A stretch of DNA of 64,000 nt from positions 1,798,001-1,862,000 of the forward strand of contig NZ_CP046976.1 of assembly GCF_030408415.1 (NCBI RefSeq). Reading direction: 5' to 3'. Below the pieces are notes generated by a model. It was given only the letters and a program-made list of their open reading frames with translations. It did no database searches and was not told the origin of the DNA. How positions within the stretch are numbered: position 1 is the first letter of the stretch; the number at the start of each line of letters is the position of its first letter. Positions 1,573 through 54,269 of the stretch are shown here, piece by piece. The DNA is from Corynebacterium appendicis CIP 107643. GTDB taxonomy: Bacteria; Actinomycetota; Actinomycetes; Mycobacteriales; Mycobacteriaceae. The translations under genes and the position numbers were made by a program.

Positions 1573-2721
1573 TCAATCGTGACCAGGCGGCGGGTCGGAG
1601 CCGAAAAGTGTCGCCATCGCGCCGTATCTGTGGTGCATCTGCGGCACGGGTGTTCCGCGGGGCGAGACCCAGATTGGTGTTCCCTGGCGCATCTCGATGC
1701 GGCCTCGCTGCCGGCGCCGCGGGCCGTCGTCGTTGACGCGGTTGTGATAGCTGCACAAGGGGGCGAGGTTGGCCAGGTTGGTTTCCCCTCCCCTGCTCCA
1801 CGGCGTGATGTGGTGGATCTCGCACGCATCGGCGCCGTGCCGGCAGAACGGCTGCGAGCACGTCGGCATCGCTGCTCGCGCGAGGTCGCGCTGCTTCTGG
1901 TTGGCGAACCGGCTCGTCCGGTACAGATTCACCGCGCCCTGCTGCGGGTGGAAGAGCGCGGCCTCCAGCTCGTTGTCGGCGGTAGCGATGAAGCGGTTGA
2001 GGAATTCCGCACCGGTCATCGTCGTGCCGTCGGTGAGACCGAGGACGACCTCGTCGCCGTCACCGCGGACAATGCTCGCAAAATCCGGCACGCCCACGAG
2101 AACGAGTGGACGCGGGTGCGAGTGCGGGACGCCCGTGGCGGAGGCAGGTGCGCCGTCGGGGTTGCCACCGAAATTGTCGCCGAGATTGCCGCGCAGCAGG
2201 TTCTCGAGTCTGGACGCCATCTGGGGCATGGCGGGCTTGGAGGAATCGATGCCGTCGCGCAGGAAGTGCTCGGTGTCGGCGAGCAGGCGCTCGTCAGCGG
2301 TCACCGTCATGGAACGCTTGCCCATTCTGGACCGGCCGAACTTCACGGCGTTCTTTGGCGGAGCCGGTTCAGGATCCGGCACCAGCTTCTTCGCGCGGCG
2401 CTTCAACGCGTCGAAACTGCCGCGGAAATTCAAAAGGGAAAGGCGGGTCTGCCAGGAGGTGGAGGGGTCGTCGATAAGCGAAAGGCGTGATTCGATGAAT
2501 GCGAGCTGATCGATCGAGAGCTCGCTCGCGCGTGCCTTATCGAGGGCCTTTCGTTGCCATTTCGTCCACTTCGTGCGGCCGAAATACGTGCGGTGCACTG
2601 CTTCCCACTCGCGGACGCGCCGCGGATCGAGCCCGGCGGCGAGCGCGACCTCGCGGTCGAAATCCGCGAGCGAGTCCACGACGCTGCCGCGCAGCGCCTG
2701 GACCATGTCAGTGAACCTCAT
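1573..2721 (-). CDS. DUF222 domain-containing HNH endonuclease-like protein
   Basis: The protein is about 382 residues. Its N-terminal part is the helical DUF222/13E12-type domain seen in many actinobacterial copies, and its C-terminus is an HNH nuclease motif: paired cysteines, EIHHITPW, GG.TNLANL, LC..HN. Metal-binding and catalytic residues of the HNH fold are present. These proteins are abundant in Corynebacterium and Mycobacterium, and their biological role is not settled. ATG codons at 2721 and 2706 are both possible; the second has a GAGG eight bases upstream. Longer starts would overlap the putative -10 box at 2771-2776. It is convergent with the acyl-CoA dehydrogenase. One CGTCGATAAGC copy lies inside the gene. 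Confidence 0.82.
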   Translation of the reverse strand: MRFTDMVQALRGSVVDSLADFDREVALAAGLDPRRVREWEAVHRTYFGRTKWTKWQRKALDKARASELSIDQLAFIESRLSLIDDPSTSWQTRLSLLNFRGSFDALKRRAKKLVPDPEPAPPKNAVKFGRSRMGKRSMTVTADERLLADTEHFLRDGIDSSKPAMPQMASRLENLLRGNLGDNFGGNPDGAPASATGVPHSHPRPLVLVGVPDFASIVRGDGDEVVLGLTDGTTMTGAEFLNRFIATADNELEAALFHPQQGAVNLYRTSRFANQKQRDLARAAMPTCSQPFCRHGADACEIHHITPWSRGGETNLANLAPLCSYHNRVNDDGPRRRQRGRIEMRQGTPIWVSPRGTPVPQMHHRYGAMATLFGSDPPPGHD

Positions 2722-2763
2722 GACTCGAACGCTAATCGAAGCCGCTACCCTCCGAAAGCGATA

Positions 2764-2785
2764 TTTGCGCATTATAGTGCGCAAA
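2764..2785 (-). promoter_or_regulatory. Inverted repeat containing a perfect -10 box (HNH gene promoter/operator)
   Basis: The arms TTTGCGC and GCGCAAA flank an eight-base spacer. On the minus strand the spacer reads ACTATAAT, so a consensus TATAAT (2771-2776) sits in the centre of the dyad, upstream of the HNH gene. A bound repressor would occlude the promoter. No convincing -35 box is visible, and the regulator is unknown. Confidence 0.45.
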
Positions 2786-2819
2786 ACCGGCACCCCGCGA
2801 TCGTGCGGAATGCCGGTTT
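2784..2819 (-). terminator. Terminator downstream of the beta-oxidation operon
   Basis: AAACCGGCA and TGCCGGTTT form a stem 14 bases past the stop codon of the dehydrogenase/hydratase. On the minus strand it is followed by TTTT. It abuts the promoter of the HNH gene. Confidence 0.65.
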
Positions 2820-2832
2820 CGGGGTGTGGCGA

Positions 2833-5037
2833 CTAGTTGTTCAGCGGCTTGCGCGTGGTCGCCATGGACACGGCGCGGTCGTGGTTCTCCTGGCGCTGGA
2901 GCACCTCGGTGGCCGCGTCGACCTGGCGCTGTGCCAGCTCCTCCTCGGTGGCGGTGCCGTCGCCGGTGTAAACCTTGGCCAAGGCCTCGCCGATGGCCTT
3001 GTCGGTCTCGGAACCATCGGTGTAGGCGAGGGCATCGGTGGTGAGCGGGAGTTCGGCGTCGGCGGGTGCGGAGTAGCCGTCCGCGAGCTTCTTCACCAGC
3101 TCGAGGGCGCCCTCGACAACGTGGTCCGGGGACTGGATGACCTCGTCGTGCTCACGCCAGAAGTCGACGTTGACCGCCGGGACCGGCTTGACGTTGAGCA
3201 GCACACCGAATGCAGTGGCGTGCGGGTTCGGGGCGCCGATCTCGACCAGGCGCTCCAGCAGGCGCACCGGGCCGGACCACGCCGGGAACAGACCGACGTT
3301 GCGCTCCGGGAAGCCCACGCGGGCCTCGGCGTGGATGACGGACGCGTCGGTGTGCAGCAGCAGCTCCATGCCGCCGCCGAGCGCCACACCGCGGACCGCG
3401 CCGACCACCGGGTACGGGGCGATGCGTGCGCCGTGCAGGCCGTCGATGCCCTGCTTGATGGTGCGGGCCAGCTCCTCGGCATCGCCCTCCGGGCCGGAAA
3501 GCTTCGCCAGGGTGCCCAGGTCGGCGCCCGCGGAGAAGGCGCGCTCCTCGTCGTTGGCGATGACCAGGCCCTTGAGGTCCCACTCCGGCGCGTGCGTCCA
3601 CAGCTCGGTGACGGCGTTGGAGTTGGAGTTCATCGGGGTCTTGTAGACGAAGACGCCGAAGCCTGCGTAGTCACCGTCGGTGAGCTTGTACACGGTGGCG
3701 TCGTCGTTGCCGGCGATTTCCTCGGCGCCAGCCACCAGGTCAGCAACGCGGATGACGCCCTCGCGGTTCGGCAGGTCGGTCAGGTTGCCGTCGGTGCCGA
3801 GCACCTTGCCGCCGGCGTAGAAGCCGCCGGCCTGCTTAGCAGACTCGAGCAGGGACGGGGTGTCGTCGATAAGCGATGCGACGAAGTCGATGCCCAGCGA
3901 ATCCGCGAGCGCGAACGGGCCCTTCTTCCAGCCGTAACCGAGCTGCATCGCGATATCGATCTGGTCGACCGTCTCCGCGATCTCCGGCGCGGTGTCGCAG
4001 CAGTACTTGATGAAGGTCGCAAAGACCTCCTTCGCGTAATCGCCCTCCGGGGTGCCCGACTCGATGAGCTCCTTCGGGTCCTTGCCGACCTCGAACTTCT
4101 CCTTCGGACGGTAATCGCCCGCCTCAAAGTCGTAAATCTCGTCGCGGCCGCGGTAGAAGCCGGACTCGGCGGTGCGGCCGGTGAAGCCCTTGTCCAGCAG
4201 GGTTGTGAACTCGTCGCGCTCGACGATGTTGTAGTCGTGGTACGCGTCGGACTCCGGCAGGGCCTTCAGCAGCGAACCCCAAATACCCGGGACGAGCTGG
4301 ATGCCGACGTAGTCGAACAGGCCGAAGATACCGGTGCGCGGCACGCCGAACGGGCGGCCGAACGCGACGTCCGCCTGCTCCGGCTTGATGCCGGTGTCGA
4401 AGGCGGTCTTGGCGCCGACGGCCATCCAGAAATTGCCGATGCGGTTGGCGATGAAGCCCGGGGTGTCGCGGCAGTCCACGACGACCTTGCCCATTTGGCG
4501 CTCCAGCACGTGGTGCATCTGCTCCTTGACCTCGGCGGAGGTGTCCGGGCCCTCGACGTACTCGACGAGGCGCATCACGCGCGGAGGGTTGAAGAAGTGG
4601 GTGATGGAGAAGTCGCGTTTGAACTCGGCGGACGCCTCGCCGAGCAGGACCTCCAGCGGAATGGTGGAAGTGTTGGAGGATACCGGGGTGCCCGGCTTGC
4701 GGTGCGCGTCGACCTTGGCGAAGGTGTCGCGCTTGACGTCGATGTCCTCGAAGACGGCCTCGACAATCCAGTCGACCTCGCCGAGACGGTCCAGGTGGTC
4801 CTCGGTGTTGCCCGGGGTGACCAGCTCTGCATTCTCGGGGCGCTGGAAGCCGTGGCGCTTCAGCTGAGTGTCGATGCCCTTCTGGGCGCGGCCGTTCCGC
4901 TCATCCCCTTCAGCGCCTTCGATCGGCAGATCGAGGAGCTGAACCTTGATGCCCGCGTTGGCCATGTGCGCGGCGATGCCGGCGCCCATGGAGCCGGCGC
5001 CGAGAACTGCTGCTGTTTTGATGTCTTTAGCTGCCAT
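2833..5037 (-). CDS. 3-hydroxyacyl-CoA dehydrogenase / enoyl-CoA hydratase (FadN-type domain order)
   Basis: This is a 734-residue bifunctional beta-oxidation protein. The N-terminal half is a 3-hydroxyacyl-CoA dehydrogenase with a Rossmann motif (VLGAGSMGAG, residues 10-19). The hydratase/isomerase domain follows from about residue 465 (FSAGADLGTL, GVALGGGMELLL, GFPERNVGLFPAWSG). This order is the reverse of E. coli FadB/FadJ and matches Bacillus FadN. The ATG at 5037 is chosen because the Rossmann strand begins right after it; the open frame runs further upstream but into the thiolase gene. The thiolase stop lies 5 bases upstream, so the pair is one operon converting enoyl-CoA through hydroxyacyl-CoA and ketoacyl-CoA to acetyl-CoA. 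One copy of the 11-mer lies inside. Confidence 0.92.
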   Translation of the reverse strand: MAAKDIKTAAVLGAGSMGAGIAAHMANAGIKVQLLDLPIEGAEGDERNGRAQKGIDTQLKRHGFQRPENAELVTPGNTEDHLDRLGEVDWIVEAVFEDIDVKRDTFAKVDAHRKPGTPVSSNTSTIPLEVLLGEASAEFKRDFSITHFFNPPRVMRLVEYVEGPDTSAEVKEQMHHVLERQMGKVVVDCRDTPGFIANRIGNFWMAVGAKTAFDTGIKPEQADVAFGRPFGVPRTGIFGLFDYVGIQLVPGIWGSLLKALPESDAYHDYNIVERDEFTTLLDKGFTGRTAESGFYRGRDEIYDFEAGDYRPKEKFEVGKDPKELIESGTPEGDYAKEVFATFIKYCCDTAPEIAETVDQIDIAMQLGYGWKKGPFALADSLGIDFVASLIDDTPSLLESAKQAGGFYAGGKVLGTDGNLTDLPNREGVIRVADLVAGAEEIAGNDDATVYKLTDGDYAGFGVFVYKTPMNSNSNAVTELWTHAPEWDLKGLVIANDEERAFSAGADLGTLAKLSGPEGDAEELARTIKQGIDGLHGARIAPYPVVGAVRGVALGGGMELLLHTDASVIHAEARVGFPERNVGLFPAWSGPVRLLERLVEIGAPNPHATAFGVLLNVKPVPAVNVDFWREHDEVIQSPDHVVEGALELVKKLADGYSAPADAELPLTTDALAYTDGSETDKAIGEALAKVYTGDGTATEEELAQRQVDAATEVLQRQENHDRAVSMATTRKPLNN

Positions 5038-6316: not shown

Positions 6317-6327
6317 GCTTATCGACG
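6317..6327 (-). repeat. CGTCGATAAGC 11-mer, intergenic copy
   Basis: An exact copy of the dispersed 11-mer (minus orientation) lies in the 150-base gap between the thiolase start and the end of the DUF4233 gene. It is one of three copies outside genes, so the repeat is not only a codon-usage effect. Confidence 0.7.
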
Positions 6328-6344
6328 GGCACCCCTCAAGCCCG

Positions 6345-6794
6345 CTACCCCTCGTCCGCGGTGCCGAGGTGCTGCGTGGTGAGCAGTCCGCGGCGCTGGC
6401 GCTCCAGGATATCGGCGCGCATTTTCACGATCAGGAACCACACGATCCCGAACATGATGCCCACTGCCCCGACGGACCAGTGGATGAAGAAGCCGATGAT
6501 GATCAACGGCACCTGGAGGGCGACGTCGAAAAGCAACGCTCCTGGGCGGCGCTGGAAGAATGCCGCGATGAAGTGCACGGCACCCATGGCGGTGACGAAG
6601 ACCCAGTTGAACGTGGTCCACAGCTCGCCGTCGTTGATCTTGAGGATCACGGTAAGGCACAGCCAGATGGTGATCGCTTCCATGACGAGCGTCCCGGAGA
6701 GTACGCCGGACAGGCCCTTGATGGGGTCCTTGACGGGCGCTGAGCCGGGACCGAGCGGGCCGTACTCGACGGGTTTACGGGGCGTGCGGGACAT
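6345..6794 (-). CDS. DUF4233 membrane protein
   Basis: This 149-residue protein has four predicted membrane segments (starting near LSGVLSGTLVMEAITIWLCL, then WVFVTAMGAVHFIAAFF, LQVPLIIIGFFIHW and VGIMFGIVWFLIV) and a short basic C-terminal tail. Actinobacterial DUF4233 proteins are regularly encoded directly after folC, as here, where the folC stop and this ATG share a base (TAATG). That implies translational coupling and membership of the valS-folC operon. No biochemical function is known to me for the family. Confidence 0.85.
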   Translation of the reverse strand: MSRTPRKPVEYGPLGPGSAPVKDPIKGLSGVLSGTLVMEAITIWLCLTVILKINDGELWTTFNWVFVTAMGAVHFIAAFFQRRPGALLFDVALQVPLIIIGFFIHWSVGAVGIMFGIVWFLIVKMRADILERQRRGLLTTQHLGTADEG

Positions 6795-8287
6795 TATTCG
6801 GGGTCCTTTCCAAACATGGCGCGGGCCTCGCCGACAGTGACGACCGAGCCGGTGATGAGCACGCCCGAGCCGGACTGCACGCCGACAGCTTCGAGCGCTT
6901 CTTCGGCGAGTTCGACGGCGAGCGTGTACGCGGACGGCAGGTGTTCCTCGACGTGGACGCGCTCTTCGCCGAAGATGTCGCGAGCGGTCTCGGCGAGCTC
7001 GTAGGCGTCGGTGGCGCGCGGCGACGAGTTCTGGGTGATGACCACCTCGCTCAAGACCGGCTCGAGCGCGGTGAACACGCCGACGGCGTCCTTGTCGTCG
7101 AGAATGCCGAGCACACCGATGAGACGCGCGAAGTTGAAGTCGCGCTCGATTGCGGCGGCGAGGGCTTGGGCGCCGTGCGGGTTGTGGGTCGCGTCGATGA
7201 ACGTCGTGGGGGTGGAGCGCACCCGCTCGAGGCGCCCCGGGGACACGGCTGCGGCGAACCCGGCGCGCACGGTGTCGGCGTCGAGGGGCTTTTCCGCGCC
7301 CGCACCGAAGAACGCTTCGACGGCGGCGAGCGCCACGGCGGCATTGCGCGCCTGGTGAGGGCCGGACAGCGGCAGGAAGACCTTGTCGTACGTGCCGGAC
7401 AGGCCGCGCAGCGTCAGGGTCTGGCCGCCGACGGCCACGCCGGCCTCTTCGACGCCGAATTCTTCGTCGAGGCGAGCAACAGCGGTGCCGACCTCGACGG
7501 TGCGCTCCAGGATGACGCGCATCGCTTCTGGCTCCTGGTTCGCGACCACGGTGACAGCTTCGGGGCGGCGCACGATGCCGGCCTTCTCCCCCGCGATCTC
7601 GGCGATGGTGTCGCCGAGGTAGTCGGTGTGATCGAGACCGACGGGCATGATGACATCGACGTCGGATTCAACGACGTTGGTGGCGTCCCACGTGCCACCC
7701 ATGCCGACCTCGACGACGGCGATCTCGACGGGGGCGTCGGCAAACGCAGCGAGTGCGATCGCGACGGTCACCTCGAAATAGGACATCGGGTGGTCGCTTT
7801 TGGCATCGACGAGCTCGATGAACGGCTTGATTTCCTCGTAGATGCGCACCAAATCAGCCGGGTGGATCGGCTCGCCGTCGATCCCGACTCGCTCGGTGAT
7901 CGACTGCAGGTGCGGGCTCGTCGTGCGCCCGACACGCGCGCCGAAGGAGCGCAGCAGCGACTCGATCATCCGCACCGTCGAGGTCTTGCCGTTCGTGCCC
8001 GCGACATGGATCACCTTGTACGCGCGCTCCGGGTGGCCGAGGAAGTCCATGAGCATCTCGATGCGCTCGAGGCTCGGGTCGATCTTCGTTTCGGGCCAGC
8101 GCGCGAGCAATTCGCTCTCCACGCGCGCGAGTTCCGCGCGGTCCGCGTCGGACACGGGACGCGGGACGGGGGCGGCAGAGTCGGGGTCGTCGGGGGTGCC
8201 GTCGATAAGCTCGTCGCCCAAATTGAGCACGAGCCCGTCTTCGTCCATGCGGATGTCGTATCCGCTCTCCTGGTCGCTGTCCGCCAC
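6794..8287 (-). CDS. folC: Bifunctional dihydrofolate synthase / folylpolyglutamate synthase
   Basis: This 497-residue Mur-ligase-type enzyme adds glutamate to dihydropteroate and folates in the cytoplasm. The ATP-binding loop is VAGTNGKTSTVRM. The folate-binding motif SPHLQSITERVGIDG follows. The last third matches the Mur-ligase C-terminal domain (TFIDATHNPHGAQAL). The first 45 residues are an acidic, poorly conserved extension. The start is a GTG overlapping the valS stop (TAGTG), and the end overlaps the DUF4233 start, so valS, folC and DUF4233 are a tightly coupled operon. One copy of the 11-mer falls in the acidic N-terminal extension. Confidence 0.93.
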   Translation of the reverse strand: MADSDQESGYDIRMDEDGLVLNLGDELIDGTPDDPDSAAPVPRPVSDADRAELARVESELLARWPETKIDPSLERIEMLMDFLGHPERAYKVIHVAGTNGKTSTVRMIESLLRSFGARVGRTTSPHLQSITERVGIDGEPIHPADLVRIYEEIKPFIELVDAKSDHPMSYFEVTVAIALAAFADAPVEIAVVEVGMGGTWDATNVVESDVDVIMPVGLDHTDYLGDTIAEIAGEKAGIVRRPEAVTVVANQEPEAMRVILERTVEVGTAVARLDEEFGVEEAGVAVGGQTLTLRGLSGTYDKVFLPLSGPHQARNAAVALAAVEAFFGAGAEKPLDADTVRAGFAAAVSPGRLERVRSTPTTFIDATHNPHGAQALAAAIERDFNFARLIGVLGILDDKDAVGVFTALEPVLSEVVITQNSSPRATDAYELAETARDIFGEERVHVEEHLPSAYTLAVELAEEALEAVGVQSGSGVLITGSVVTVGEARAMFGKDPE

Positions 8288-11025
8288 TACTTGGCCTCCG
8301 GCAGCGCGGCGAGGCGCGCGGTGACGCGCTCGACTTCTTCTTGCGCGACTTTCTGGCGTTCGCGAATCTTCTCTACGACCTCGGCGGGGGCCTTGGACAG
8401 GAAGGACTCGTTGCCGAGCTTCTTGCCGGTGTTGTCCAGCTCCTTCTCCGCTGCGGCGAGCTCCTTCTCGAGGCGTTTGCGCTCAGCCGCGACGTCGACG
8501 GTGCCCGAGGTGTCCAGGGCCGCGTCCAGCGTGGTTTCGGCAAGACGCACTTCAATGCTTGCCGACGCCCCGAAGTCCTCCCCCGGCACCTCCACCCTCG
8601 CGATGGAGCGGATCATGTCTTCCTGACCCGCGAGGTCTGCCTTGGCAAAGTCCAGGCGCGCCGGGACTTTCTGCGACGGCTTGACGCCCTGGTCGGAGCG
8701 GAAGCGGCGCAGCTCGGTGATCAGCGCAATGGCGTCGGTGATGCGGCGCTGGGCGACTTCGTCGACTTCTGCACCGCCATTGGTGTCTTCCGCGGTCGGC
8801 CACGGCGCGAGGCACAGAGAGTCCTTCTCCGTGAGTGCCTTCCACAGCACTTCGGTGACGAACGGCATGGTCGGGTACAGCAGGCGCAGGACCACGTCGA
8901 GGACGCGGCCGAGCACGATCTGGGTGTTGCGGCCCTTTTCGGAGACGCCGTCGCGCGGGATCTGGGTCTTGGCGATCTCGAGGTACCAGTCGCACAGCTC
9001 GTCCCACGCGAAGTGGTAGAGCTCTTCGTTGGCTTTGGAGAACTGGTAGTCGTCGAGAAGCTTATCGACGTGCCCCCTCACCGTTTCCAGCCTGTCCAGA
9101 ATCCAACGGTCTGCGTCGGTGAGCTCCTCGCGCGCTGGCAGCGGGCCGACAGCCGCGCCGTTCATCAGCGCGAACTTGGTGGCGTTGTAGAGCTTGGTGG
9201 CGAAGTTACGGGCGGCCGCTGCGTTGTCGTCGCCGATGGGCAGGTCGATGCCCGGGTTCGCGCCGCGGGCGAGCGCGAAGCGCAGTGCGTCTGCGCCGTA
9301 GTCACGCACCCAGTCCATCGGGTCAATGCCGTTGCCGAGCGACTTGGACATCTTCCGGCCCTTCTCGTCGCGGACGAGGCCGTGGAGGAAGATGTTCTTG
9401 AACGGTACTTCCGGCCGATCGTCCTGGCCTTGGCCCAGGACATCGGCTGTTTGAGTGCCGGCGAAGGTGCCGAACATCATCATGCGCGCAACCCAGAAGA
9501 AGAGGATGTCGTAGGCGGTGACCAGCACCGTCGTCGGGTAGAACTTCTCCAGCTCCGGGGTGGTGTCCGGCCAGCCCATCGTGGAGAACGGCCACAGGGC
9601 GGACGAGAACCAGGTGTCCAGGACGTCCGGGTCCTGCTCGTAGCCCTTGGGCGCTTCCTCATCTGGGCCGAGGCAGATGATGTCGCGCTCACCGTTTTCA
9701 TCCTCCGGGCCGTACCAGATCGGGATGCGGTGGCCCCACCACAGCTGGCGCGAAATGGTCCAGTCGTGCATGTTGTCCACCCAGTCGAAGTAACGCTTCT
9801 CCAGGGAATCCGGGTGGATGACGGTGTCGCCCTCGCGGACTGCTTCGCCGGACATGCGGGCCAGCTCGGAGACCTTCACGAACCACTGCAGGCTCAAGCG
9901 CGGCTCGATCGGCTCGCCGGTGCGCTCCGAGTGGCCGACGGAGTGGACGTACGGGCGGACCTCTTTGACTATGCGCCCCTGCTCCGCCAGAGCTTCGCGC
10001 ACCTTCACGCGGGCTTCCTCGCGGGTCAGGCCGTCAAACTCGGTGCCGGTGTCAGCGATGTGGCCGGTCTTGTCCATGATGATTGGCATGTCCAAGTCGT
10101 GGCGCAGGCCCATCTCGTAATCGTTCGGGTCGTGGGCCGGGGTGATCTTCACTGCACCGGTGCCCAGCTCCCGGTCGACGTAGTCGTCGGCGATGACCTT
10201 CAGCTTCAAGTCGTCGCGGAACGGGTGATCGAATTCCTGGCCGACGAGGTGCTGGTAGCGCTCGTCGTCCGGGTGGACGGCGATGGCGACATCTCCCAGC
10301 ATCGTCTCCACGCGGGTGGTGGCCACGACGAGGTGCGGCTCGTCGTCGTTGAGCGAACCGTAGCGGATGGAGACGAACTCGCCCTCGACATCCTTGTACA
10401 CGACCTCGATATCGGAGACGGCTGTCTCCAGCACCGGGGACCAGTTGACCAGGCGGTAATCCTGGTAGATCATCCCGGCGTCGAAAAGCTGCTTGAAAAT
10501 GGTGACGACCGCTCGGTTCAGCCCTTCGTCGAGTGTGAAGCGCTCCCGCGACCAGTCGACGGAATCGCCGATCGCGCGCATCTGCGACGTGATGGTGCCG
10601 CCGTACTTCTCTTTCCACTCCCACACGCGCGAGATGAATTCCTCGCGGCCGTAGTCGTAGCGGTCCTTGCCCTCGGTCTCCTTGAGCATGGCCTCGACCT
10701 TGGTCTGCGTGGCGATGCCCGCGTGGTCCATGCCCGGCAGCCACAGCACCTCGTAGCCCTGCATACGCTTGCGTCGCACCAGGGAATCCATCAGCGTGTG
10801 GTCCAGCGCGTGGCCCATGTGCAGCTGACCCGTCACATTGGGCGGGGGCAGCACGATCGAGTAGGCGGGCTTGTCCGACGACGGGTCGGCCGTGAAGTAG
10901 CCCTTGTCCACCCACTCTTCGTAGATCCCCTGCTCGAGGTCCTGAGGCTCCCAGCTCTTCGGCAGGGCGTCCGCCCTACTGACACCGATGAGCTGCTCGT
11001 TGTACGTCGCGCTAGATTCAGTCAC
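8287..11025 (-). CDS. valS: Valine--tRNA ligase
   Basis: This is a 912-residue class I aminoacyl-tRNA synthetase. The HIGH motif is HMGH at 69-72, the KMSKS motif is at 558-562, a large editing (CP1) domain lies between them, and a C-terminal coiled coil ([17 protein letters not shown]) is typical of ValRS. The GTG at 11025 is the start, because the open frame beyond it runs antisense to mdh. No good Shine-Dalgarno precedes it, and a TACACT-like -10 lies close by, so the transcript may be leaderless. It is the first gene of valS-folC-DUF4233. One 11-mer copy is inside, encoding VDKLL. Confidence 0.95.
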
Positions 11026-11068: not shown

Positions 11069-12157
<1,089 letters not shown>

Positions 12158-12293: not shown

Positions 12294-13127
12294 GTGACGG
12301 AGTCCACGCATCCCGGCACCCGGTCCGGCGGCGGCGCGGCGGAGAACACCGACAAGGCCGATGCCGCCGACACCGCCGCACTGGACCGCGCCGTGGACAT
12401 TGCGCTGACCCACTTCGCACGGGAGGGGTACACCTCCACGAAGCTCGACACGATCGCGCGCGAGGCCGGCATGTCGAAGCGCATGCTGCACTACCACTTC
12501 GGCGACAAGCGCGAGCTGTACCGCCGCGCACTCACCCGCGCAGCATGGAGTTTCACCCCGCCGCAGGAATTCCTCGACCGCTCCTACGCGGTACCCGTGG
12601 AGGGCATCCGCCGCTTCGTGGACGTGTTGTACAACCGGATGATCCAGAACCCGGATTCCATCCAGCTCTTCCTGCGCGAGAACCTCGACCCGGTTCTAAG
12701 CCCGGAGGACGTCACCGCGACACGCAGCGATTCGGAGGTTCTCCTTCAGATCGAACGCCTGCTGCTCATGGGTCAGGACGCGGGCGCGTTCCGCCCGGGA
12801 ATTTCCGCAACTGACGTGGCAGTGCTGATCGCGTCGCTGACGTTCTTCCGCATCGGAAACCACGCCACGATGGATCAATTCGGCGGGATGAACATGCTCA
12901 GCCCCACGAACACGGAGGGCATGCGCCGCCTCACCATCGACGCGGTGCTGACGTTTTTGACGTCGAATATCCCCCACTCGGGCTACGAGTCCTACCTGAC
13001 GTTTTCCGCACCCGAGGTCGCAGAGCCCGCCGACGAGGACGAGCCCAGCGAGGGAGACTACATAGGCGAGACGCTTATCGACGACATCTACGACCCCAAC
13101 TACCCCGCCACCCCCTCCGGGGAATAG
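12294..13127 (+). CDS. TetR/AcrR family transcriptional regulator
   Basis: The 277-residue regulator has an N-terminal helix-turn-helix (TSTKLDTIAREAGMSKRMLHYHF) preceded by a 35-residue acidic/glycine-rich leader, and a C-terminal ligand domain ending in a long acidic tail. The GTG at 12294 is preferred because AAGGAGA lies 4-5 bases upstream; an in-frame ATG at 12219 is less likely. Ligand and target are unknown. It is divergent from mdh with about 230 bases between them, and convergent with clpX with only 9 bases between stops. The 11-mer occurs near its 3' end. Confidence 0.88.
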   Translation: MTESTHPGTRSGGGAAENTDKADAADTAALDRAVDIALTHFAREGYTSTKLDTIAREAGMSKRMLHYHFGDKRELYRRALTRAAWSFTPPQEFLDRSYAVPVEGIRRFVDVLYNRMIQNPDSIQLFLRENLDPVLSPEDVTATRSDSEVLLQIERLLLMGQDAGAFRPGISATDVAVLIASLTFFRIGNHATMDQFGGMNMLSPTNTEGMRRLTIDAVLTFLTSNIPHSGYESYLTFSAPEVAEPADEDEPSEGDYIGETLIDDIYDPNYPATPSGE

Positions 13128-16051: not shown

Positions 16052-16062
16052 CGTCGATAAGC
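16052..16062 (+). repeat. CGTCGATAAGC 11-mer, intergenic copy
   Basis: An exact copy in plus orientation lies between the terminator hairpin and the clpP2 stop codon. Confidence 0.7.
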
Positions 16063-19210: not shown

Positions 19211-19221
19211 GCTTATCGACG
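19211..19221 (-). repeat. CGTCGATAAGC 11-mer, intergenic copy
   Basis: An exact copy in minus orientation lies between the tRNA-Pro and tRNA-Gly genes, in a stretch without any gene. Confidence 0.7.
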
Positions 19222-42595: not shown

Positions 42596-43276
42596 TTAAC
42601 CGAACAGGTTGATCCCGCCGGAGGTGTAGTAGACGCTGCCGAACGGGGCATCGAGGCGGATCCACCGGCCCGCGGTGGAGATGCGCATGTGCCGCGGGAT
42701 CTCCACCGGGGCGCTCGGGCCCGGTATGAGTCCGAGCGAGGTGCAGGTGAAGATCATCCGCATCGGCACATCGACCGGAGTGCCGCCGGTCTTTTCGGTG
42801 TCGGCGGTGAGCACGATCTGCTCGAGAAGCGAGCGCGGCGGGCCCATCGGCCCGGAGAACTGGCGCGCCAAGCGGCGGCCCTGGTCAGCGAGGTCGCGCA
42901 CCACGTGAACCGGCACAATATCGCGCTGGACGTAGCCGGACTTCGGCGGCAGTGCGCCCAGCCAATTCGCGTCACGTGCCGGTCCGATCTCCAACGGCCC
43001 GTTGGAGGAGCCGGAGCTTAGATCGGTAACGCCGGCGAGGGCGTCGCGCAGGTCCTGCAGCGAGACCACTGCCCCGTCGCGGGAGGCCTGCCCCGCCACC
43101 CGGCGCGAGGCCACACAGCTAAACGGCGTGGTCACGAACACGTCGACGGAGGGGGTGGGGGCGGCAGGAAGCGTCGATAAGCGTGCTGAACCTGTTGCTT
43201 CCAGATGAAGCGCACGCTCGACGAGCGCCTTGAGCCCGGCTGCCCCCGACTCGACCGTGAGTGTCTCTGTACCCAC
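42596..43276 (-). CDS. Conserved hypothetical protein
   Basis: The 226-residue protein lacks signal peptide and membrane segments. It is rich in Val, Pro and Ser. Its C-terminal half has VPVHVVRDLADQGRRLARQFSG and a run of beta-strand-like segments ending in FGSVYYTSGGINLFG. I do not recognise a family. The GTG at 43276 overlaps the stop of the thioesterase gene (TAGTG), so it is translationally coupled to it and to ettA upstream. The stop abuts the end of the convergent lactone oxidase. The 11-mer is read here in a third frame (RLST). Confidence 0.75.
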   Translation of the reverse strand: MGTETLTVESGAAGLKALVERALHLEATGSARLSTLPAAPTPSVDVFVTTPFSCVASRRVAGQASRDGAVVSLQDLRDALAGVTDLSSGSSNGPLEIGPARDANWLGALPPKSGYVQRDIVPVHVVRDLADQGRRLARQFSGPMGPPRSLLEQIVLTADTEKTGGTPVDVPMRMIFTCTSLGLIPGPSAPVEIPRHMRISTAGRWIRLDAPFGSVYYTSGGINLFG

Positions 43277-43774: not shown

Positions 43775-45445
43775 TTAGCGCGTCAGCTTGCGGTGCGTGA
43801 CGCGGGACGGCTTGGCGGCTTCCTCGCCGAGACGCTCCACCTTATTGGCTTCGTAGTCGCCGAAGTTGCCTTCGAACCAGAACCACTTGCCTTCCTCAAT
43901 ATTGCCCTCCCAGGCGAGGATGTGTGTGCAAGTTCGGTCGAGGAACCAGCGGTCGTGCGAAATGACCACGGCACAGCCCGGGAATTTCTGGAGCGCATTC
44001 TCCAAAGAGCTCAGGGTTTCGACGTCGAGGTCGTTGGTCGGCTCGTCGAGGAGGATCAGGTTTCCGCCCTGCTTGAGGGTCAAAGCCAGGTTCAGGCGGT
44101 TGCGCTCACCACCGGAGAGAACCTTAGACGGCTTCTGCTGGTCCGGCCCCTTGAAGCCGAACGCGGACAGGTACGCGCGCGACGGCATTTCGTTCTGGCC
44201 GACGTGAATGTAATCGAGCCCGTCGGAGACGACCTCCCACACCGTCTGCTCTGGGTCGATGTTCTCGCGGTTTTGGTCCACGTACGAGATCTGCACAGTG
44301 TCGCCGACCTCGACCGAACCGGAATCCGGCTCCTCGAAACCGACGATCGTCTTGAACAGCGTCGACTTACCCACACCGTTCGGGCCGATGACACCGACGA
44401 TGCCGTTGCGCGGCAGCGTGAACGACAGGTCCTTGATCAGAGTGCGGCCGTCGAAGCCCTTGTTCAGGTCCTTGACCTCGACGACCTTGTTGCCCAGGCG
44501 CGGCGGCGTCGGGATCTGGATCTCCTCGAAGTCGAGCTTGCGGTACTGCTCCGCCTCGGCAGCCATCTCCTCGTAGCGCTCCAGGCGCGCCTTGTTCTTC
44601 GCCTGGCGTGCCTTCGGCGAGGAGCGGACCCACTCCAGCTCGCCCTTCAGTCGCTTCTGCAGCTTCTGGTCCTTCTTGCCCGCGATCTCGAGGCGCTCAG
44701 CCTTCTTCTCCAGGTAGGTGGAGTAGTTGCCCTCGTACGGGTAGAGCTTGCCGCGGTCGACCTCGCAGATCCACTCCGCGACGTGGTCGAGGAAGTAGCG
44801 GTCGTGGGTAACGGCCAGGACGGCGCCCGGGTAGTCCTGGAGATGCTTCTCCAGCCACAGGACACTCTCGGCGTCGAGGTGGTTCGTCGGCTCGTCGAGA
44901 AGCAGCAGGTCCGGCTGGGACAGCAGCAGCTTGGCCAGTGCCACGCGGCGGCGCTCGCCACCCGAGAGGTTGGTCACCGGGGAATCCGACGGCGGGCAGC
45001 GCAGTGCCTCCATGGCCTGCTCGATCTTGGAGTCGACCTCCCACGCGTCAGCCGCGTCGAGCTCCTCCTGCAGCTTGCCCATTTCCTCCATGAGCTCGTC
45101 GGAGTAGTTCGTGGCCATCTCCGCGGCGATCTCCTCGAAGCGCTGCTTCTTCTCGAAGATGTCGCCCAGGCCCTCTTCGACATTCTCGCGTACCGTCTTC
45201 TCCTCGTTCAGTGGCGGTTCCTGGAGCAGGATGCCCACGGTCGCGCCCGGGTCGAGGAATGCCTCGCCGTTATTCGGCTGGTCGATGCCCGCCATGATCT
45301 TCAGCAGCGAGGACTTGCCCGCGCCGTTGGGGCCCACGACACCGATCTTGGCGCCCGGGTAAAAAGCCATCGTGACATTGTCCAGAATGACCTTGTCACC
45401 GACCGCCCTGCGAACATTTTTCATCGTGTAGATGAACTCGGCCAC
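43775..45445 (-). CDS. ettA: Energy-dependent translational throttle protein EttA (ABC-F)
   Basis: The 556-residue soluble ABC-F ATPase has two nucleotide-binding domains: Walker A GPNGAGKSS and GPNGVGKST, signature LSGGERRRVALA and LSGGERNRLNLA, and an arm/linker of charged helices between them (KKAERLEIAGKKDQKLQKR). There are no membrane segments. EttA binds the ribosomal E site and gates the first elongation step according to the ATP/ADP ratio. Length and both linkers fit EttA rather than Uup or resistance ABC-F proteins. Confidence 0.94.
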   Translation of the reverse strand: MAEFIYTMKNVRRAVGDKVILDNVTMAFYPGAKIGVVGPNGAGKSSLLKIMAGIDQPNNGEAFLDPGATVGILLQEPPLNEEKTVRENVEEGLGDIFEKKQRFEEIAAEMATNYSDELMEEMGKLQEELDAADAWEVDSKIEQAMEALRCPPSDSPVTNLSGGERRRVALAKLLLSQPDLLLLDEPTNHLDAESVLWLEKHLQDYPGAVLAVTHDRYFLDHVAEWICEVDRGKLYPYEGNYSTYLEKKAERLEIAGKKDQKLQKRLKGELEWVRSSPKARQAKNKARLERYEEMAAEAEQYRKLDFEEIQIPTPPRLGNKVVEVKDLNKGFDGRTLIKDLSFTLPRNGIVGVIGPNGVGKSTLFKTIVGFEEPDSGSVEVGDTVQISYVDQNRENIDPEQTVWEVVSDGLDYIHVGQNEMPSRAYLSAFGFKGPDQQKPSKVLSGGERNRLNLALTLKQGGNLILLDEPTNDLDVETLSSLENALQKFPGCAVVISHDRWFLDRTCTHILAWEGNIEEGKWFWFEGNFGDYEANKVERLGEEAAKPSRVTHRKLTR

Positions 45446-46434: not shown

Positions 46435-48441
46435 TTAGTTGGTTCCGTTCGAGCCCCGATTCGAGTTCTGCTTCGACCGCGCCGAGTACTGCGCGAGCAT
46501 CTCGTTGTAGGCGCGCCACTGCTCGTCATCCGATTCGTCTTCGCGGCGGTCGCTGTCCTTTGCGTCAGCGCGGTCGTCGCGAAGCCAGCCCAGAAGGAGA
46601 ATGACGAAGACGAGCGCCATCGGGAAGCCGCCGGCCGCCCAGCCGATGCCGCCGCCGATCTTCTGGTCGCGCAGCAGATCTGGGTTCCACGGCAATTCGA
46701 GGTTGGTGTAGAAATCCTCGGCCAAGACGTAGGAGAGCTGCATCAGGTACACGCCCATGAATAGGTGGATCGGCATGGAGAAGACGAACCACGCGAAGCG
46801 GATCACCGTGGCACGGCGGTTGGGCACATAGTCCGGTCCGATGAGGTCCCAGAAATAGAAGTAGCCCGACAGCAGGAAGACGGCGTTCATGATGAGGTGG
46901 CCGGCGTGCTCGGAGACCGCGAATTCGTAGAACGACGGGAAAACGTAGAGCACGTAGAAGACAACAAGGAACTGCACAGTGGACACCGGCGGGTATGTGA
47001 CCACCTTGAGGAAGGTCGATTCCTCGAACGCTTCGACCCAGGCGCGGGCGTTGAACTCGCCTTCCGGGTACGCCTGTTTGACCAGGGTCAGCGGGGCGCC
47101 GAGCACGAGGAAGACGGGCACGACCATCGACAGGATCATGTGCACGACCATGTGCACGGAGAAGCTCGCCGGCATGTACATGCCGATGCCCGACGACATG
47201 ATCACGACCGTCGTCGCACAGCCGGCCAGCCACCATGCGGTGCGCGAGTGTTTCCAACCGTCCACCCGGCGCACGAGGTGCAGGTAGTAGGCGGCGAGCA
47301 GGAGCGCGATGACGCTGAAGAAGACCTCGAAGCGCCACATGCCGAACACGTTGGTCACCGTCGGCGCGACTTCAAGGTTGTAGCCCATCTGGATCTGCAT
47401 CGGCGTCAAGTCCGGTTGCAGCGGCGCCGGCGGAGGGGTGCGGCCCATCGACACAGCCACGCCCGTAACCGCTGCCATCACGAGCGTTTCGACGACGGCG
47501 ATCCGCCCGAACAACCGTGGCCTGCTCTCCAACTGCGGAATGGTCAACTGACGGTGCGCGTAGCCCAGCAACCCCAGCACGGCCAGCCCGATGACTTTGA
47601 GCAGCACCGTCCACCCGTAGGCCGTCGAGGTCAGATCGGAGAACTGCACCCGTATCAGCGCGTTGACCACGCCGGAGACCATCAGCGTGACGAACGCGAA
47701 CAGCGCCACCGACGAGTACCGCCGCACAGCGCGCGGCATCTCCGGCCCGAGCCTGCGCGCGTGCGCGATGAGCGCCAGCAGCCCGCCGACCCACAGCAGC
47801 ATGAACACCAGGTGCCACAGGTAGGAGTTCGTGCCGTAGTCGTGGTTTCCGCCCGAGGCGGAGTGGCCCGACAGGCCCAGCGGGATCACAGTGATGATCG
47901 AACCGATGAACAGCGCGACCTGCGACGACCACGAGCTGCACGCGAAACCGAAACCGGCGACGACCGCCGCGATCAGCCCCACGATCAACCAGATCTTCGC
48001 CTCCGCGACCCGCTCCAGGGCAGTCGCCCACATCTGCGGGGAGAACATCACCTCGGGCAGCGGTGTGCCCGACACATCCGACAGGACCAGCGGGATCATC
48101 ACCAGCGCTATCAGCGCCAGCCCTGCGCTCGACCAGGCCGCAGTGCGGGCGGCAAGGTGGCCGTCGACGGCGAGTGAGGCGTCGATTAGCTTCCTGCTAT
48201 TCGGCGGAATCATGAACGCCGCGAACATGAACGACCCGGTGGCGAGCGCCCCCAGCAACCAGGCCACCCCGCGCAACGCCGGCAACCCCACCGTGGTCAG
48301 CGGGCCTGGATCCGGGATGCCCAGCGCCGCCAGGGAACCACCCACGAAACTGAACGACAACGCCCCGGCCACCACGGCGCCGACCGCCAACACCGCGAGG
48401 TAGACCGGCCACGCCGACTTCACTGCTTGCTTCTCCGACAT
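46435..48441 (-). CDS. CopD-CtaG fusion: copper transport / cytochrome c oxidase assembly protein
   Basis: This is a 668-residue polytopic membrane protein. The N-terminal half (about 9 helices, to residue 320) resembles CopD, with conserved histidines such as LWHLVFMLLWVGGL. The C-terminal half is a caa3-type CtaG domain (HMVVHMILSMVVPVFLVLGAPLTL, HLIMNAVFLLSGYFYFWDLIGPD, FSMPIHLFMGVYLM). The tail is charged and cytoplasmic. Fused CopD-CtaG is the usual actinobacterial form and serves copper delivery to cytochrome oxidase. The ATG at 48441 is preferred; the longer frame overlaps the tRNA-Arg gene. Confidence 0.9.
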   Translation of the reverse strand: MSEKQAVKSAWPVYLAVLAVGAVVAGALSFSFVGGSLAALGIPDPGPLTTVGLPALRGVAWLLGALATGSFMFAAFMIPPNSRKLIDASLAVDGHLAARTAAWSSAGLALIALVMIPLVLSDVSGTPLPEVMFSPQMWATALERVAEAKIWLIVGLIAAVVAGFGFACSSWSSQVALFIGSIITVIPLGLSGHSASGGNHDYGTNSYLWHLVFMLLWVGGLLALIAHARRLGPEMPRAVRRYSSVALFAFVTLMVSGVVNALIRVQFSDLTSTAYGWTVLLKVIGLAVLGLLGYAHRQLTIPQLESRPRLFGRIAVVETLVMAAVTGVAVSMGRTPPPAPLQPDLTPMQIQMGYNLEVAPTVTNVFGMWRFEVFFSVIALLLAAYYLHLVRRVDGWKHSRTAWWLAGCATTVVIMSSGIGMYMPASFSVHMVVHMILSMVVPVFLVLGAPLTLVKQAYPEGEFNARAWVEAFEESTFLKVVTYPPVSTVQFLVVFYVLYVFPSFYEFAVSEHAGHLIMNAVFLLSGYFYFWDLIGPDYVPNRRATVIRFAWFVFSMPIHLFMGVYLMQLSYVLAEDFYTNLELPWNPDLLRDQKIGGGIGWAAGGFPMALVFVILLLGWLRDDRADAKDSDRREDESDDEQWRAYNEMLAQYSARSKQNSNRGSNGTN

Positions 48442-52495: not shown

Positions 52496-52537
52496 TCGCG
52501 ACATCGTTGACAGATCAGTCGCGACATGGTGGATAAA
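52496..52537 (+). repeat. Repeat copy A (also downstream of tRNA-His)
   Basis: A 42-base segment contains TCGCGAC and GTCGCGA as inverted arms. It matches 56570-56611 with about six differences. It starts 11 bases after attR, as the other copy starts 13 bases after tRNA-His. Confidence 0.6.
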
Positions 52538-52830
52538 CCAGCGCCTAGGTTCTCCCGGGTGCCGGTTTCAGGTATCGGGGCACTGCTTTCCACGAGCCGA
52601 CACCCAAAGTTTTAAGAAGGTTCGAAAAACCATTCGAGAAAGCTGACAGCTTGGTTCATCCAGTTTCTTAGAGTGCGACATGCAGCGATTCAAAGGCCAC
52701 AGGTAAGAAGACCGCGCTGAGATGCAAAGCCTTTCTCCACAGTGGCCCGTTCGCTGGGCGCTAGCGCCATATTTCTATCGACCATCCCCCTAGCCACGAC
52801 GAGGCGGACAGTTCCTGAAAGGGCCAACAC

Positions 52831-53499
52831 ATGAGTACCGCATTCAACCCCAACCAGGGTGACCCGCAGTGGATCCAGAACCAGCAGCCACAGTGGGGAC
52901 AGGGGCAGCCCCAGCCGGGCCAGGCTCCCCAGCAACCCCAGGCGCCCGAGCAGCCAAAGAGGAAGGGAGGCTGCCTGAAGTGGGGCGGAATCATTCTCGG
53001 CGGCCTGATTCTGATCGGCATTGGTAGCGCGATTGGCGGCGGCAGCGACAGTGCCGAAGAGCAAAGCTCCGCACCAGAAACCACCGCGATCGAATCCGCC
53101 GACGATGCGCCTGAAGCAGCGCCCGCCGACCAGCCAGACGAAAAGGCAGAAGAGGAGCCACAGGAGAAGCCGGAGGAAAAGAAGGAGGACGTTCCCCGCG
53201 AATTCAAGAGCGCGCTCAAGAAGGCCCAAACCTACTCTGACACGATGCATATGTCCGAAGCTGGTTTGTACGAGCAGCTCACGTCCGAATATGGAGAGAA
53301 GTTCAGCCCAGAAGCTGCCCAGTACGCCATCGAGAATGTGAAGGCGGACTACAACAAGAATGCTCTCGAGATGGCCAAGACATACCAGGACACCATGGAG
53401 ATGGCACCCGACGCGATCTACGACCAGCTTGTGTCCGAGTACGGTGAGCAGTTCACTCCGGAGCAGGCCCAGTACGCGGTAGACAACCTGCCCCTGTAG
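52831..53499 (+). CDS. Ltp-family membrane-anchored protein (superinfection-exclusion-type domain)
   Basis: The 222-residue protein has a Gln/Pro-rich N-terminus, one membrane segment (GGIILGGLILIGIGSAIGGG), a Glu/Pro/Ala-rich acidic linker and two copies of the Ltp helix-turn-helix repeat. Both copies have the form A..Y..TM.M....(L/I)Y.QL.SEYGE.F.PE.AQYA(I/V)(E/D)N. The domain is that of phage TP-J34 lipoprotein Ltp, which blocks DNA entry. Cellular homologues are widespread in actinobacteria, with unproven roles. No lipobox is seen, so it is anchored by the helix. It lies 350 bases beyond the island end. Confidence 0.82.
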   Translation: MSTAFNPNQGDPQWIQNQQPQWGQGQPQPGQAPQQPQAPEQPKRKGGCLKWGGIILGGLILIGIGSAIGGGSDSAEEQSSAPETTAIESADDAPEAAPADQPDEKAEEEPQEKPEEKKEDVPREFKSALKKAQTYSDTMHMSEAGLYEQLTSEYGEKFSPEAAQYAIENVKADYNKNALEMAKTYQDTMEMAPDAIYDQLVSEYGEQFTPEQAQYAVDNLPL

Positions 53500-53633
53500 C
53501 CTGCCCCTTCGGCCCGTGGGGAACATGAGCTGCTCCCATGGGCCAGGGAAGCATCCGCGATTGCGCACTGAAATGTACATTTGACGTGCGCGAACGCGCG
53601 ACAAGTGCGCCGCGTGAAATTACGATGAGGGCC

Positions 53634-54269
53634 ATGAACGGCACTTCCACGATCACCGCGACACTCAACGAACTCGAATTCCTCATGAGCACCATCTATC
53701 CGCCGGCGTTCATGGCTTTAGGCGACGGGATGGCGCTCGCCGATATCCAACGCACGGTGAACGCGTACTCGCCTGTGCTGGAAAAGGCCGGCGTCGATTT
53801 CCCGTCCGAGCTGGTCGAACTGTACCACTGGCACAATGGCTCGAACCGCGAGGACATTATCGGCCCAGTCCAGCTACTCAGCCTCGAGGAGGCGTTAGAG
53901 ACGTGGCGCGCGCTTATCGACGCCAGAGACACCGAATTCCCCTCCGACGACTGGTACTACCCAAGCTGGATCCCTTTCGCCGAATCGTGGTCCGACAGCT
54001 ACCTGTGCATTGATGCAAAAGGCGTGGCCGGCGGCAACCGCGGCCAGATCGTGGAATTCAACCGCAACCGCCCGTCGAGGACCATTCAGGCGCTTTACAT
54101 GCGGGACTGGTTCCAGCAGGTGGTGGATGACTACGCGCTCGAGGAACTCACCCGCACCCACGGCATCCCTGCCGGGGAGGAGGGCGAGGACGGGCTCTAC
54201 GACTACGACCCAGAGGAGCCGCCCGAGGGGCCGAACTGCCACGTGCGATTCTTCGAAGCAGGTGAGTGA
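53634..54269 (+). CDS. SMI1/KNR4 (SUKH) family protein
   Basis: This 211-residue SUKH-fold protein has LPPAFxxF-like spacing near IYPPAFMALGDG, VDFPSELVELYHWHNGSN, then WIPFAESWSDSYLCIDAKGVAGGNRGQIVEFNR and a C-terminal helix. Many SUKH proteins are immunity proteins of polymorphic toxins; others are orphan. No toxin gene is adjacent here. GATGAGG lies just before the ATG at 53634; an in-frame ATG at 53625 is an alternative. One 11-mer copy encodes ALIDAR. Confidence 0.82.
   Translation: MNGTSTITATLNELEFLMSTIYPPAFMALGDGMALADIQRTVNAYSPVLEKAGVDFPSELVELYHWHNGSNREDIIGPVQLLSLEEALETWRALIDARDTEFPSDDWYYPSWIPFAESWSDSYLCIDAKGVAGGNRGQIVEFNRNRPSRTIQALYMRDWFQQVVDDYALEELTRTHGIPAGEEGEDGLYDYDPEEPPEGPNCHVRFFEAGE

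Follow-up and report, generated by a model that had tools for sequence, protein, structure and literature searches.

A composite, dispersed DNA motif with clade dialects in Corynebacterium: a possible self-recognition tag for DNA exchange

In a 64,000-base stretch of the chromosome of Corynebacterium appendicis CIP 107643 (bases 1798001-1862000 of its single 2,284,440-base contig, hereafter the window), we found a dispersed composite element, about 30 nucleotides (nt) of G-rich, C-poor DNA followed by the core C(G/A)TCG-NN-AAGC, the second base of which distinguishes two forms, here called dialects, that prevail in different species of the genus. By analogy with the DNA uptake sequences (DUS) of Neisseriaceae and the uptake signal sequences (USS) of Pasteurellaceae, the element is probably a dispersed self-recognition tag of that type, possibly read in natural transformation. 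The wider proposal, a genus-wide self-recognition code for DNA exchange that is carried by a composite element and whose clade dialects switch genome-wide in place, could equally prove right or wrong. The chromosome-wide counts described below were compared with those of 151 Corynebacterium genomes, which are labeled by G-numbers, and stretches fetched from them are labeled by L-numbers. Judged by PepN, the nearest relatives of C. appendicis among named genomes are C. meitnerae, C. tuscaniense and two further isolates, with 92-94% identity.

The original prediction, made from the letters of the window, had described an exact 11-mer (CGTCGATAAGC) with 20 copies, 10 on each strand, and with G as the next base at 14 of them. 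All copies were recovered at their positions with the same count of following G, compared with an expectation of 0.05 from 100 dinucleotide shuffles of the window (the largest count in any shuffle being 1), and 36 copies were found against 1.4 expected when one mismatch was allowed. Across the 2.28 Mb genome, the 11-mer occurs 585 times (282 + 303), and the reversed pattern, that is, the same pattern read backwards, occurs once, which bears out the proposal of a genome-wide signal. As a definition of the motif, however, the fixed 11-mer was too narrow. In a 464-kb sample of the genome (the window plus 20 stretches of 20 kb), most of its single-base neighbours were near expectation, the main exceptions being the seventh base, with 19, 18 and 23 copies of its variants against 0.9, 2.0 and 2.5 expected, and A to C at the ninth base (14 against 0.7); two-base changes of the middle were also in excess, such as TC with 26 copies. 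The sample holds 239 cores, of which 111 have AT in the middle and the others TC, AG, AA, AC, GC or further pairs. Since the middle two bases are free, the unit was taken as CGTCG-NN-AAGC (CGTCGNNAAGC), and the fixed 11-mer was rejected on this degeneracy together with the excess at its ninth base. The core so defined has 1,324 copies genome-wide, compared with 92 for its reversed pattern, amounting to about one per 1.7 kb, and is followed by G or T at 170 of the 239 sampled sites. Among ten gapped shapes scanned, it ranked first in all four carriers scanned (G004, G067, G123 and G104; z 16 to 31), and CATCG-NN-AAGC (CATCGNNAAGC) ranked first in G168; the enrichment of the motif is roughly 10- to 70-fold. 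A second form, CGTCGNNACGC, is likewise in excess, with 14 copies of CGTCGATACGC against 0.7 expected in the 464-kb sample and 12 copies of CGTCGNNACGC in each 20 kb of G027 (L154) and G166 (L156), and the ninth base of the 11-mer may also vary by clade.

On the 5′ side of the AT-middle form, the 30 nt directly preceding the core contain 47-55% G and 17-19% C, compared with 32% each in the genome, with an onset near −35. This flank is present alike in antisense (55), sense (31) and intergenic (25) copies, which agrees with the earlier claim that the constraint lies on the DNA and not on a peptide, and the same flank, somewhat weaker, precedes cores with other middle bases (93 antisense, 27 sense). 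No shift in flank composition was found at 250 control places of the form CGTCG..[CG]AG, and G equals or exceeds C in the tract at 96% of examined sites, compared with 55% of random 30-mers. Similarly, in 17 of 18 species groups, covering both dialects, G exceeds C by at least 13 points at −15 to −1, the exception being G031 (G 33 versus C 27). The letters of the tract are conserved between species at 0.735-0.741, below the 0.78-0.79 of more distant DNA, and conservation is likewise reduced (0.72) in the 14 nt that follow the core, so that sites tend to sit in variable places. As the tract letters are less conserved and yet the composition is present, what is kept appears to be composition, not sequence. 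A tract of G runs was rejected, with 291 GGG runs, fewer than the 378 in shuffled tracts, and so was a G-quadruplex tract, although the loose quadruplex pattern was slightly raised (123 against 101, standard deviation 5.4). The G..G spacing in the tract is in excess, as expected from codons; from the depleted GGG runs and this codon-like spacing, composition rather than runs was taken as the feature kept. A slight T excess follows the core on its 3′ side in C. appendicis. Neither the tract nor the species dialects had been noticed in the original prediction, whose account of the motif was incomplete to that extent.

Genic copies lie mostly in one antisense frame, as the genetic code allows. 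In orthologous DNA, to which the original prediction had pointed as a check, the nine core bases were conserved across 12 relatives in 52 of 102 site-by-relative comparisons, which are not independent because the relatives share ancestry, compared with 176/798 for permuted-letter decoys (Fisher 4e-9) and 20/142 for one-off neighbours; the sites are thus conserved above most decoys. With the replication origin placed by dnaA at base 1 of the contig and the terminus assumed opposite, not located, 113 versus 126 of the 239 sampled sites were found in the two orientations relative to genome halves (p 0.44). There is no replication polarity, and the earlier argument from equal strand use against a polar, Chi-like or translocase-guiding signal therefore holds for each genome half. 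The spacing in the sampled stretches is slightly more even than random (coefficient of variation (CV) 0.90). The presence of the same element, with its tract, in sense, antisense and intergenic DNA, its conservation at orthologous positions and its absence from four plasmid stretches of carrier species (below) support a genome-wide signal that acts on DNA.

Across the wider order, counts in 61 genomes gave 0 to 494 exact 11-mers in 36 other Corynebacterium and 0 to 5 in 24 genomes from other families. The 151 Corynebacterium genomes have a bimodal distribution of core counts: 105 hold at least 280 copies (280 to 1,891), 46 hold fewer, and none falls at 135-279. Seven of the 46 (G006, G077, G118, G129, G135, G162 and G168) use CATCG-NN-AAGC instead, with 625 to 1,080 copies, and G167, among the 105, holds both dialects, 1,337 copies of CATCGNNAAGC beside 352 CGTCG cores. 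Neither form is used in 39 of the 151, two of which, G097 (213) and G108 (159), keep residual CATCG sites and look like cases of motif decay; these two also have fewer AdnAB-type nuclease domains (1 and 2, the usual number being 3) and no or weak T2SSF matches. In named loci of about 22 kb, 9 to 16 copies were counted in C. minutissimum, C. pseudodiphtheriticum, C. amycolatum and C. vitaeruminis, 0 or 1 in C. variabile, C. mendelii, C. suicordis and C. dentalis, and 0 to 2 in the Gordonia and Williamsia loci. The middle NN also differs by clade. On a ComEC tree of 40 genomes, some branches of which are weakly supported and two rows of which are long, motif-poor genomes occupy several separate positions, and CATCG users a number of different ones.

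How dialects replace each other was seen in one sister pair, G004 (CGTCG, 921 copies) and G006 (CATCG, 1,021 copies), which are close on this tree and 79% identical over two fetched regions. After setting aside 5 unaligned sites among 29 in G004, 15 of the remaining 24 read CATCG..AAGC in place in G006, 9 read otherwise and 0 kept CGTCG. In contrast, CGTCG outside the motif became CATCG at 15 places, was kept at 28 and changed otherwise at 74 (kept versus switched, motif against non-motif CGTCG, Fisher 6e-6). In the opposite direction, 21 G006 sites correspond in G004 to CGTCG at 15, to CATCG in both at 1 and to other letters at 3, with 2 unaligned. In the pair examined, a single shift in preference carried a whole set of sites with it.

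Scans for gapped patterns in motif-poor genomes, covering 20-120 kb per group, turned up no other motif of comparable form. Three genomes with 280-301 core copies (G013, G101 and G147) stand at the lower end of the carriers, and in G013 (L149) there is an excess of CGTCGGCAA, often with T as the next base, which may be a further dialect altering the 3′ end of the core. In G157 (L136, L180), counted as motif-poor, GTCGNTGAGC shows a weak excess (12 against 1.1) and may represent a dialect whose 3′ half has G in place of A. In the likewise motif-poor G014 (L033, L034, L126, L170), the palindrome TCATCGATGA is in excess (14 against 0.6).

Plasmid DNA was compared with chromosomal DNA of the same species. 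Four plasmid stretches from C. kefirresidentii, C. tuberculostearicum (two) and C. glucuronolyticum, species whose chromosomal loci carry the motif, contain 0 core copies in 99,888 bp, and the chromosomes of these three species, taken from other records, contain 16 in 54,587 bp. Two further plasmid stretches, counted on their own, contain 2 copies (C. striatum) and 0 (Corynebacterium sp. FDAARGOS 1242), so that all six (170,128 bp) hold 2 core copies, along with 7 copies of CATCG..AAGC; a mobF gene is annotated in two of them. Within the C. appendicis genome, the stretch at 798-818 kb, which carries a relaxase gene, has 1 site in 20 kb, and the core is absent from 48.6-53.5 kb of the window, where an IS3-type gene lies. 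In this small sample, plasmid stretches and one relaxase-bearing stretch, recently acquired DNA is poor in the motif.

Among the genes expected of a DNA uptake machinery, PF03772 (ComEC type), PF12836 (HHH_3) and PF02481 (DprA) each occur in 151/151 genomes, although PF12836, which also picks up proteins some 800 residues long, lacks specificity for ComEA; TadA occurs in 146/151, the prepilin peptidase (Peptidase_A24) in 149/151 and T2SSF in 143/151. C. appendicis itself has a tadA-type ATPase gene, two T2SSF genes (tadB, tadC), a short Flp-like pilin gene (Pfam DUF4244) and two small genes at the tadE and tadF places, the names Flp-like, tadE and tadF being assigned by position and form, together with comEC, an HHH_3-domain gene and dprA. 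Three candidate markers were tried and rejected. A TadE receptor residue was suggested by 2 disjoint columns in 4 CATCG and 6 CGTCG genomes and was dropped when its prediction failed; long ComEC frames in many motif-poor genomes mostly reflected placement of the N-terminal end (40 genomes read); and the presence of TadB/C does not serve as an explanation: many motif-poor genomes do have fewer or lower-scoring T2SSF matches, but TadA is found in motif-poor genomes too. Clusters of tadA, tadB, tadC, flp and tadE were found in the motif-poor G014, G065, G086, G106, G144, G153, G156 and G157.

The copy number and density of the element resemble those of USS and DUS. Considering the copy number, the lack of polarity, the absence from plasmid stretches of carrier species, the dialects, the concerted switching and the one-sided flank together, uptake sequences match best, and of the functions suggested in the original prediction, an uptake-type sequence fits best on its dialects, in-place switching, density and asymmetric flank. 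Such a tag would be read by a DNA-binding factor that recognizes the asymmetric core in chromosomal DNA with the help of the compositional flank, in a role that can be likened to that of the AT-rich flank of USS; the part of this factor in DNA uptake, and the choice of protein, are proposed by analogy. It would mark DNA of the same species in gene exchange, most likely in natural transformation through ComEC and a Flp/Tad-type pilus of the kind used by Micrococcus luteus, and tagged alleles would be taken up and recombined more often. Under such preferential uptake and recombination, sites would build up on either strand of the common chromosome, whereas they would not do so in plasmids or recent islands, and when the preference of the factor drifts, sites would follow, giving rise to dialects.

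Several observations weigh against an uptake tag. The reversed-pattern decoy was conserved in 10/24 comparisons, a small sample that is not clearly lower than the motif, and the GC content of the plasmid stretches (0.52-0.56) is below that of the chromosomal loci. Inverted pairs hardly occur: only 1 of 218 neighbouring pairs lies within 60 bp, namely the inverted overlapping sites at 9051-9070 of the window. Genomes lacking the motif have the com, dprA and tad genes as often as carriers do, and being near-universal, these genes allow the uptake reading but do not support it by association. Moreover, PF03772 matches are doubled, suggesting a split gene, in carriers G001, G136 and G138, and among motif carriers tadA contains a TGA in G008, G016 and G161 and lies in two pieces in G125 and G136; these interruptions could come from recent loss or from assembly errors. 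The receptor of an uptake sequence is usually a minor pilin; no Flp, TadE or TadF residue followed the dialects, and a prediction for TadE residue 63, fixed beforehand, failed, G077 having T, G162 having E and four CGTCG genomes having Q. We know of no equivalent of the G-tract in DUS or USS. Among the matches listed in literature searches, outside which lay most subscription journals and all bioRxiv preprints, there was no report of natural transformation in Corynebacterium and no such finding for uptake sequences, competence or Tad pili in Corynebacterium or Actinobacteria, and the listed titles matched by the motif letters concern other subjects. As a whole, the earlier interpretation is partly supported.

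Of the other explanations, a Chi-like site is unlikely. AdnAB would enter from the 3′ side of the core and change its activity at CGTCGNNAAGC, and the G-rich, C-poor strand 5′ of the core would become the recombinase-coated 3′ tail. The asymmetry of the core, the skewed strand composition on the side of recombinase loading and the lack of sites in the plasmid stretches of carrier species agree with this; the AdnA/AdnB nuclease-domain family is present in 151/151 genomes, usually with 3 matches, and G097, with 1 match, has only its residual 213 CATCG sites. However, motif-less genomes mostly keep at least 3 such matches, and the motif has no replication polarity, whereas Chi of Escherichia coli is strongly co-oriented with replication. 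The RecC family was found in 0/151 genomes by a search whose control succeeded in E. coli, and a RecBCD-Chi system is excluded by this absence. As far as we are aware, mycobacterial AdnAB is reported not to use Chi, and neither repeated dialect switching nor a flank resembling the G-tract is known for Chi.

A binding site for a nucleoid, structural-maintenance-of-chromosomes-loading (SMC-loading) or segregation protein that organizes the chromosome appears quite unlikely. The density of about one core per 1.7 kb, a spacing slightly more even than random in the sampled stretches (CV 0.90), the use of both strands and the absence from the plasmid stretches of carrier species would suit such a protein, but a signal missing in 39/151 genomes of one genus, at several places of the ComEC tree, would be odd for a core function, the repeated switching of hundreds of sites would be costly without a drive, and replication polarity is lacking. 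More improbable is a role in conjugal or distributive transfer of the chromosome, as a signal for nicking or for loading. A polar element with a strand-asymmetric flank could direct a relaxase or translocase, and chromosome-wide mosaic transfer does exist in mycobacteria; however, the six plasmid stretches, two of them with mobF, yielded only 2 cores in 170,128 bp, the relaxase-bearing chromosomal stretch is site-poor, and the sites have no orientation bias. The chances of a recognition site for DNA modification or restriction, also among the earlier suggestions, are slim. Its bipartite asymmetric core would be in character, and deamination of a methylated C on the opposite strand would turn CGTCG into CATCG, but modification would act on plasmids too, in conflict with the site-free plasmid stretches of carrier species, and it explains neither the 10- to 70-fold enrichment nor the conservation nor the 30-nt flank. 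Finally, the view that codon usage or conserved peptides such as LID or VDK produced the motif as a side effect can hardly be upheld. Most genic copies do lie in a frame reading L-x-D, but sites in either orientation and sites outside genes share one flank, changing a single base of the 11-mer mostly brings the count close to expectation, conservation exceeds that of permuted and one-off decoys, and at 15 sites the DNA of a sister species has changed in place.

The sites of the window are listed in the table together with three genes of the segment beside tRNA-Arg. The original prediction had counted 17 exact copies in genes and three between genes; with a simple gene caller, the split became 16 genic and 4 intergenic (6317, 16052, 19211 and 43172). 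It had also described 43.2-53.9 kb and 54-64 kb as free of the motif, which is right for the exact 11-mer but not for CGTCGNNAAGC, of which these parts hold 2 (44893, 46575) and 3 (54567, 56089, 63453) copies, respectively. Beside tRNA-Arg, the segment 48548-53604 has no core motif and a GC content of 0.565 at 48-52 kb. An E1-E2 ATPase gene (metal pump type) is located at 58276-60684, within what had been called a copper module.

Table. Core sites and selected genes in the window. Positions are those of the window; G and C are counts in the 30 nt directly 5′ of the core, on the core strand.
Feature	Position	Strand	5′ flank
core CGTCGTTAAGC	923..933	-	G-tract 934-963, G16 C6
exact CGTCGATAAGC	2469..2479	+	G-tract 2439-2468, G16 C4
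exact CGTCGATAAGC	3864..3874	+	G-tract 3834-3863, G13 C6
exact CGTCGATAAGC, intergenic	6317..6327	-	G-tract 6328-6357, G17 C5
core CGTCGAAAAGC	6524..6534	+	tract 6494-6523, G11 C7
exact CGTCGATAAGC	8200..8210	+	G-tract 8170-8199, G18 C6
core CGTCGGCAAGC	8557..8567	-	G-tract 8568-8597, G19 C4
core CGTCGAGAAGC, overlaps opposite-strand site 9060..9070	9051..9061	+	tract 9021-9050, G10 C5
exact CGTCGATAAGC, in valS	9060..9070	-	G-tract 9071-9100, G14 C5
core CGTCGAAAAGC	10479..10489	+	no G-tract, G9 C9
core CGTCGTCAAGC	11143..11153	+	weak tract, G11 C9
exact CGTCGATAAGC	13073..13083	-	G-tract 13084-13113, G17 C2
exact CGTCGATAAGC, intergenic	16052..16062	+	G-tract 16022-16051, G16 C9
exact CGTCGATAAGC	18751..18761	+	G-tract 18721-18750, G15 C8
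exact CGTCGATAAGC, intergenic between two tRNA genes	19211..19221	-	tract 19222-19251, G11 C8
core CGTCGGAAAGC	20961..20971	+	tract 20931-20960, G14 C9
core CGTCGAAAAGC	22779..22789	+	tract 22749-22778, G12 C8
exact CGTCGATAAGC	23048..23058	-	G-tract 23059-23088, G16 C6
exact CGTCGATAAGC	25049..25059	+	G-tract 25019-25048, G13 C6
core CGTCGTCAAGC	28455..28465	-	G-tract 28466-28495, G17 C6
exact CGTCGATAAGC	31183..31193	-	G-tract 31194-31223, G18 C2
exact CGTCGATAAGC	33034..33044	+	G-tract 33004-33033, G14 C4
core CGTCGCAAAGC	33768..33778	-	G-tract 33779-33808, G17 C3
exact CGTCGATAAGC, in pepN	35950..35960	-	G-tract 35961-35990, G21 C5
exact CGTCGATAAGC, in pepN	37177..37187	-	G-tract 37188-37217, G12 C5
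exact CGTCGATAAGC, in pepN	37822..37832	+	G-tract 37792-37821, G18 C6
exact CGTCGATAAGC	40590..40600	+	G-tract 40560-40589, G18 C4
exact CGTCGATAAGC	41693..41703	-	G-tract 41704-41733, G13 C8
exact CGTCGATAAGC, intergenic	43172..43182	+	G-tract 43142-43171, G19 C4
core CGTCGAGAAGC	44893..44903	+	weak tract, G11 C9
core CGTCGCGAAGC	46575..46585	+	weak tract, G12 C9
IS3-type integrase-core gene	49068-49982		
DUF3800 gene	50867-51565		
Ltp-type lipoprotein gene	52831-53499		
exact CGTCGATAAGC	53912..53922	-	G-tract 53923-53952, G13 C5
core CGTCGAGAAGC	54567..54577	-	weak tract, G13 C10
core CGTCGAAAAGC	56089..56099	+	G-tract 56059-56088, G16 C5
core CGTCGAAAAGC	63453..63463	-	tract 63464-63493, G12 C6

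Uptake sequences are a rare case of bacteria tagging their own DNA, and how such tags originate and change dialect is an open question, for which this genus offers carriers, tag-less genomes scattered over several parts of the tree, recurrent changes between the CGTCG and CATCG forms, and one sister pair switched in place. We know of no uptake-sequence system outside the Gram-negative families with DUS or USS, and of no self-recognition uptake tag from this branch of bacteria. If the uptake reading is true, this would be the first such system known to us outside those families, working through a mycomembrane envelope, and many corynebacteria would be, or would recently have been, naturally transformable; transformation would be predicted in skin and mucosal commensals, and the tag could be used in working with them. 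If the element is not an uptake code, a DNA-reading factor with hundreds of sites per chromosome is still to be found.

Compared with known systems, the translocase-guiding sites KOPS (FtsK orienting polar sequences) and SRS (SpoIIIE recognition sequences) are likewise short, dispersed and chromosomal with a G-rich neighbourhood, but the motif shows no origin-to-terminus polarity, with the terminus assumed opposite dnaA. Chi sites are also short polar motifs in many copies, and differ in their replication polarity and in their dependence on RecC, both missing here. A survey of spaced motifs in prokaryotic genomes names, in its available text, clustered regularly interspaced short palindromic repeats (CRISPR) for its Corynebacterium genomes and not this motif (PMC5217627). 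In Micrococcus luteus, an actinobacterium, transformation is driven by Flp/Tad pili, and the term "uptake sequence" occurs 0 times in that paper (PMC4322843); C. appendicis belongs to the same phylum and has clustered tadA, tadB, tadC, flp and tadE/F-like genes as well as comEC. DUS resemble the element in having dialects that follow clades round a constant core, and members without the tag: eight dialects with a conserved inner core, and family genomes without any, are described in PMC3630211. They differ in that the motif has no gap and extends to about 13 nt at most (PMC12616744), and in that their receptor, ComP, is known; the core here has a 2-bp gap and a flank. Terminator-like inverted pairs are common in both USS and DUS and nearly absent here. 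USS are known from Gram-negative bacteria, and their flank is AT-rich and downstream, whereas that of the motif is G-rich and 5′; for the motif, a role in uptake is proposed by analogy. USS comprise a 9-nt core with less conserved one-sided AT-rich stretches, reaching 32 nt and proposed to ease melting or kinking of the DNA, and have two dialects (PMC12616744), and about 1300 copies are given for Haemophilus influenzae (PMC5217627). In its short core, its long, less conserved, one-sided compositional flank, its similar copy number and its dialects, the element of Corynebacterium is thus like USS.

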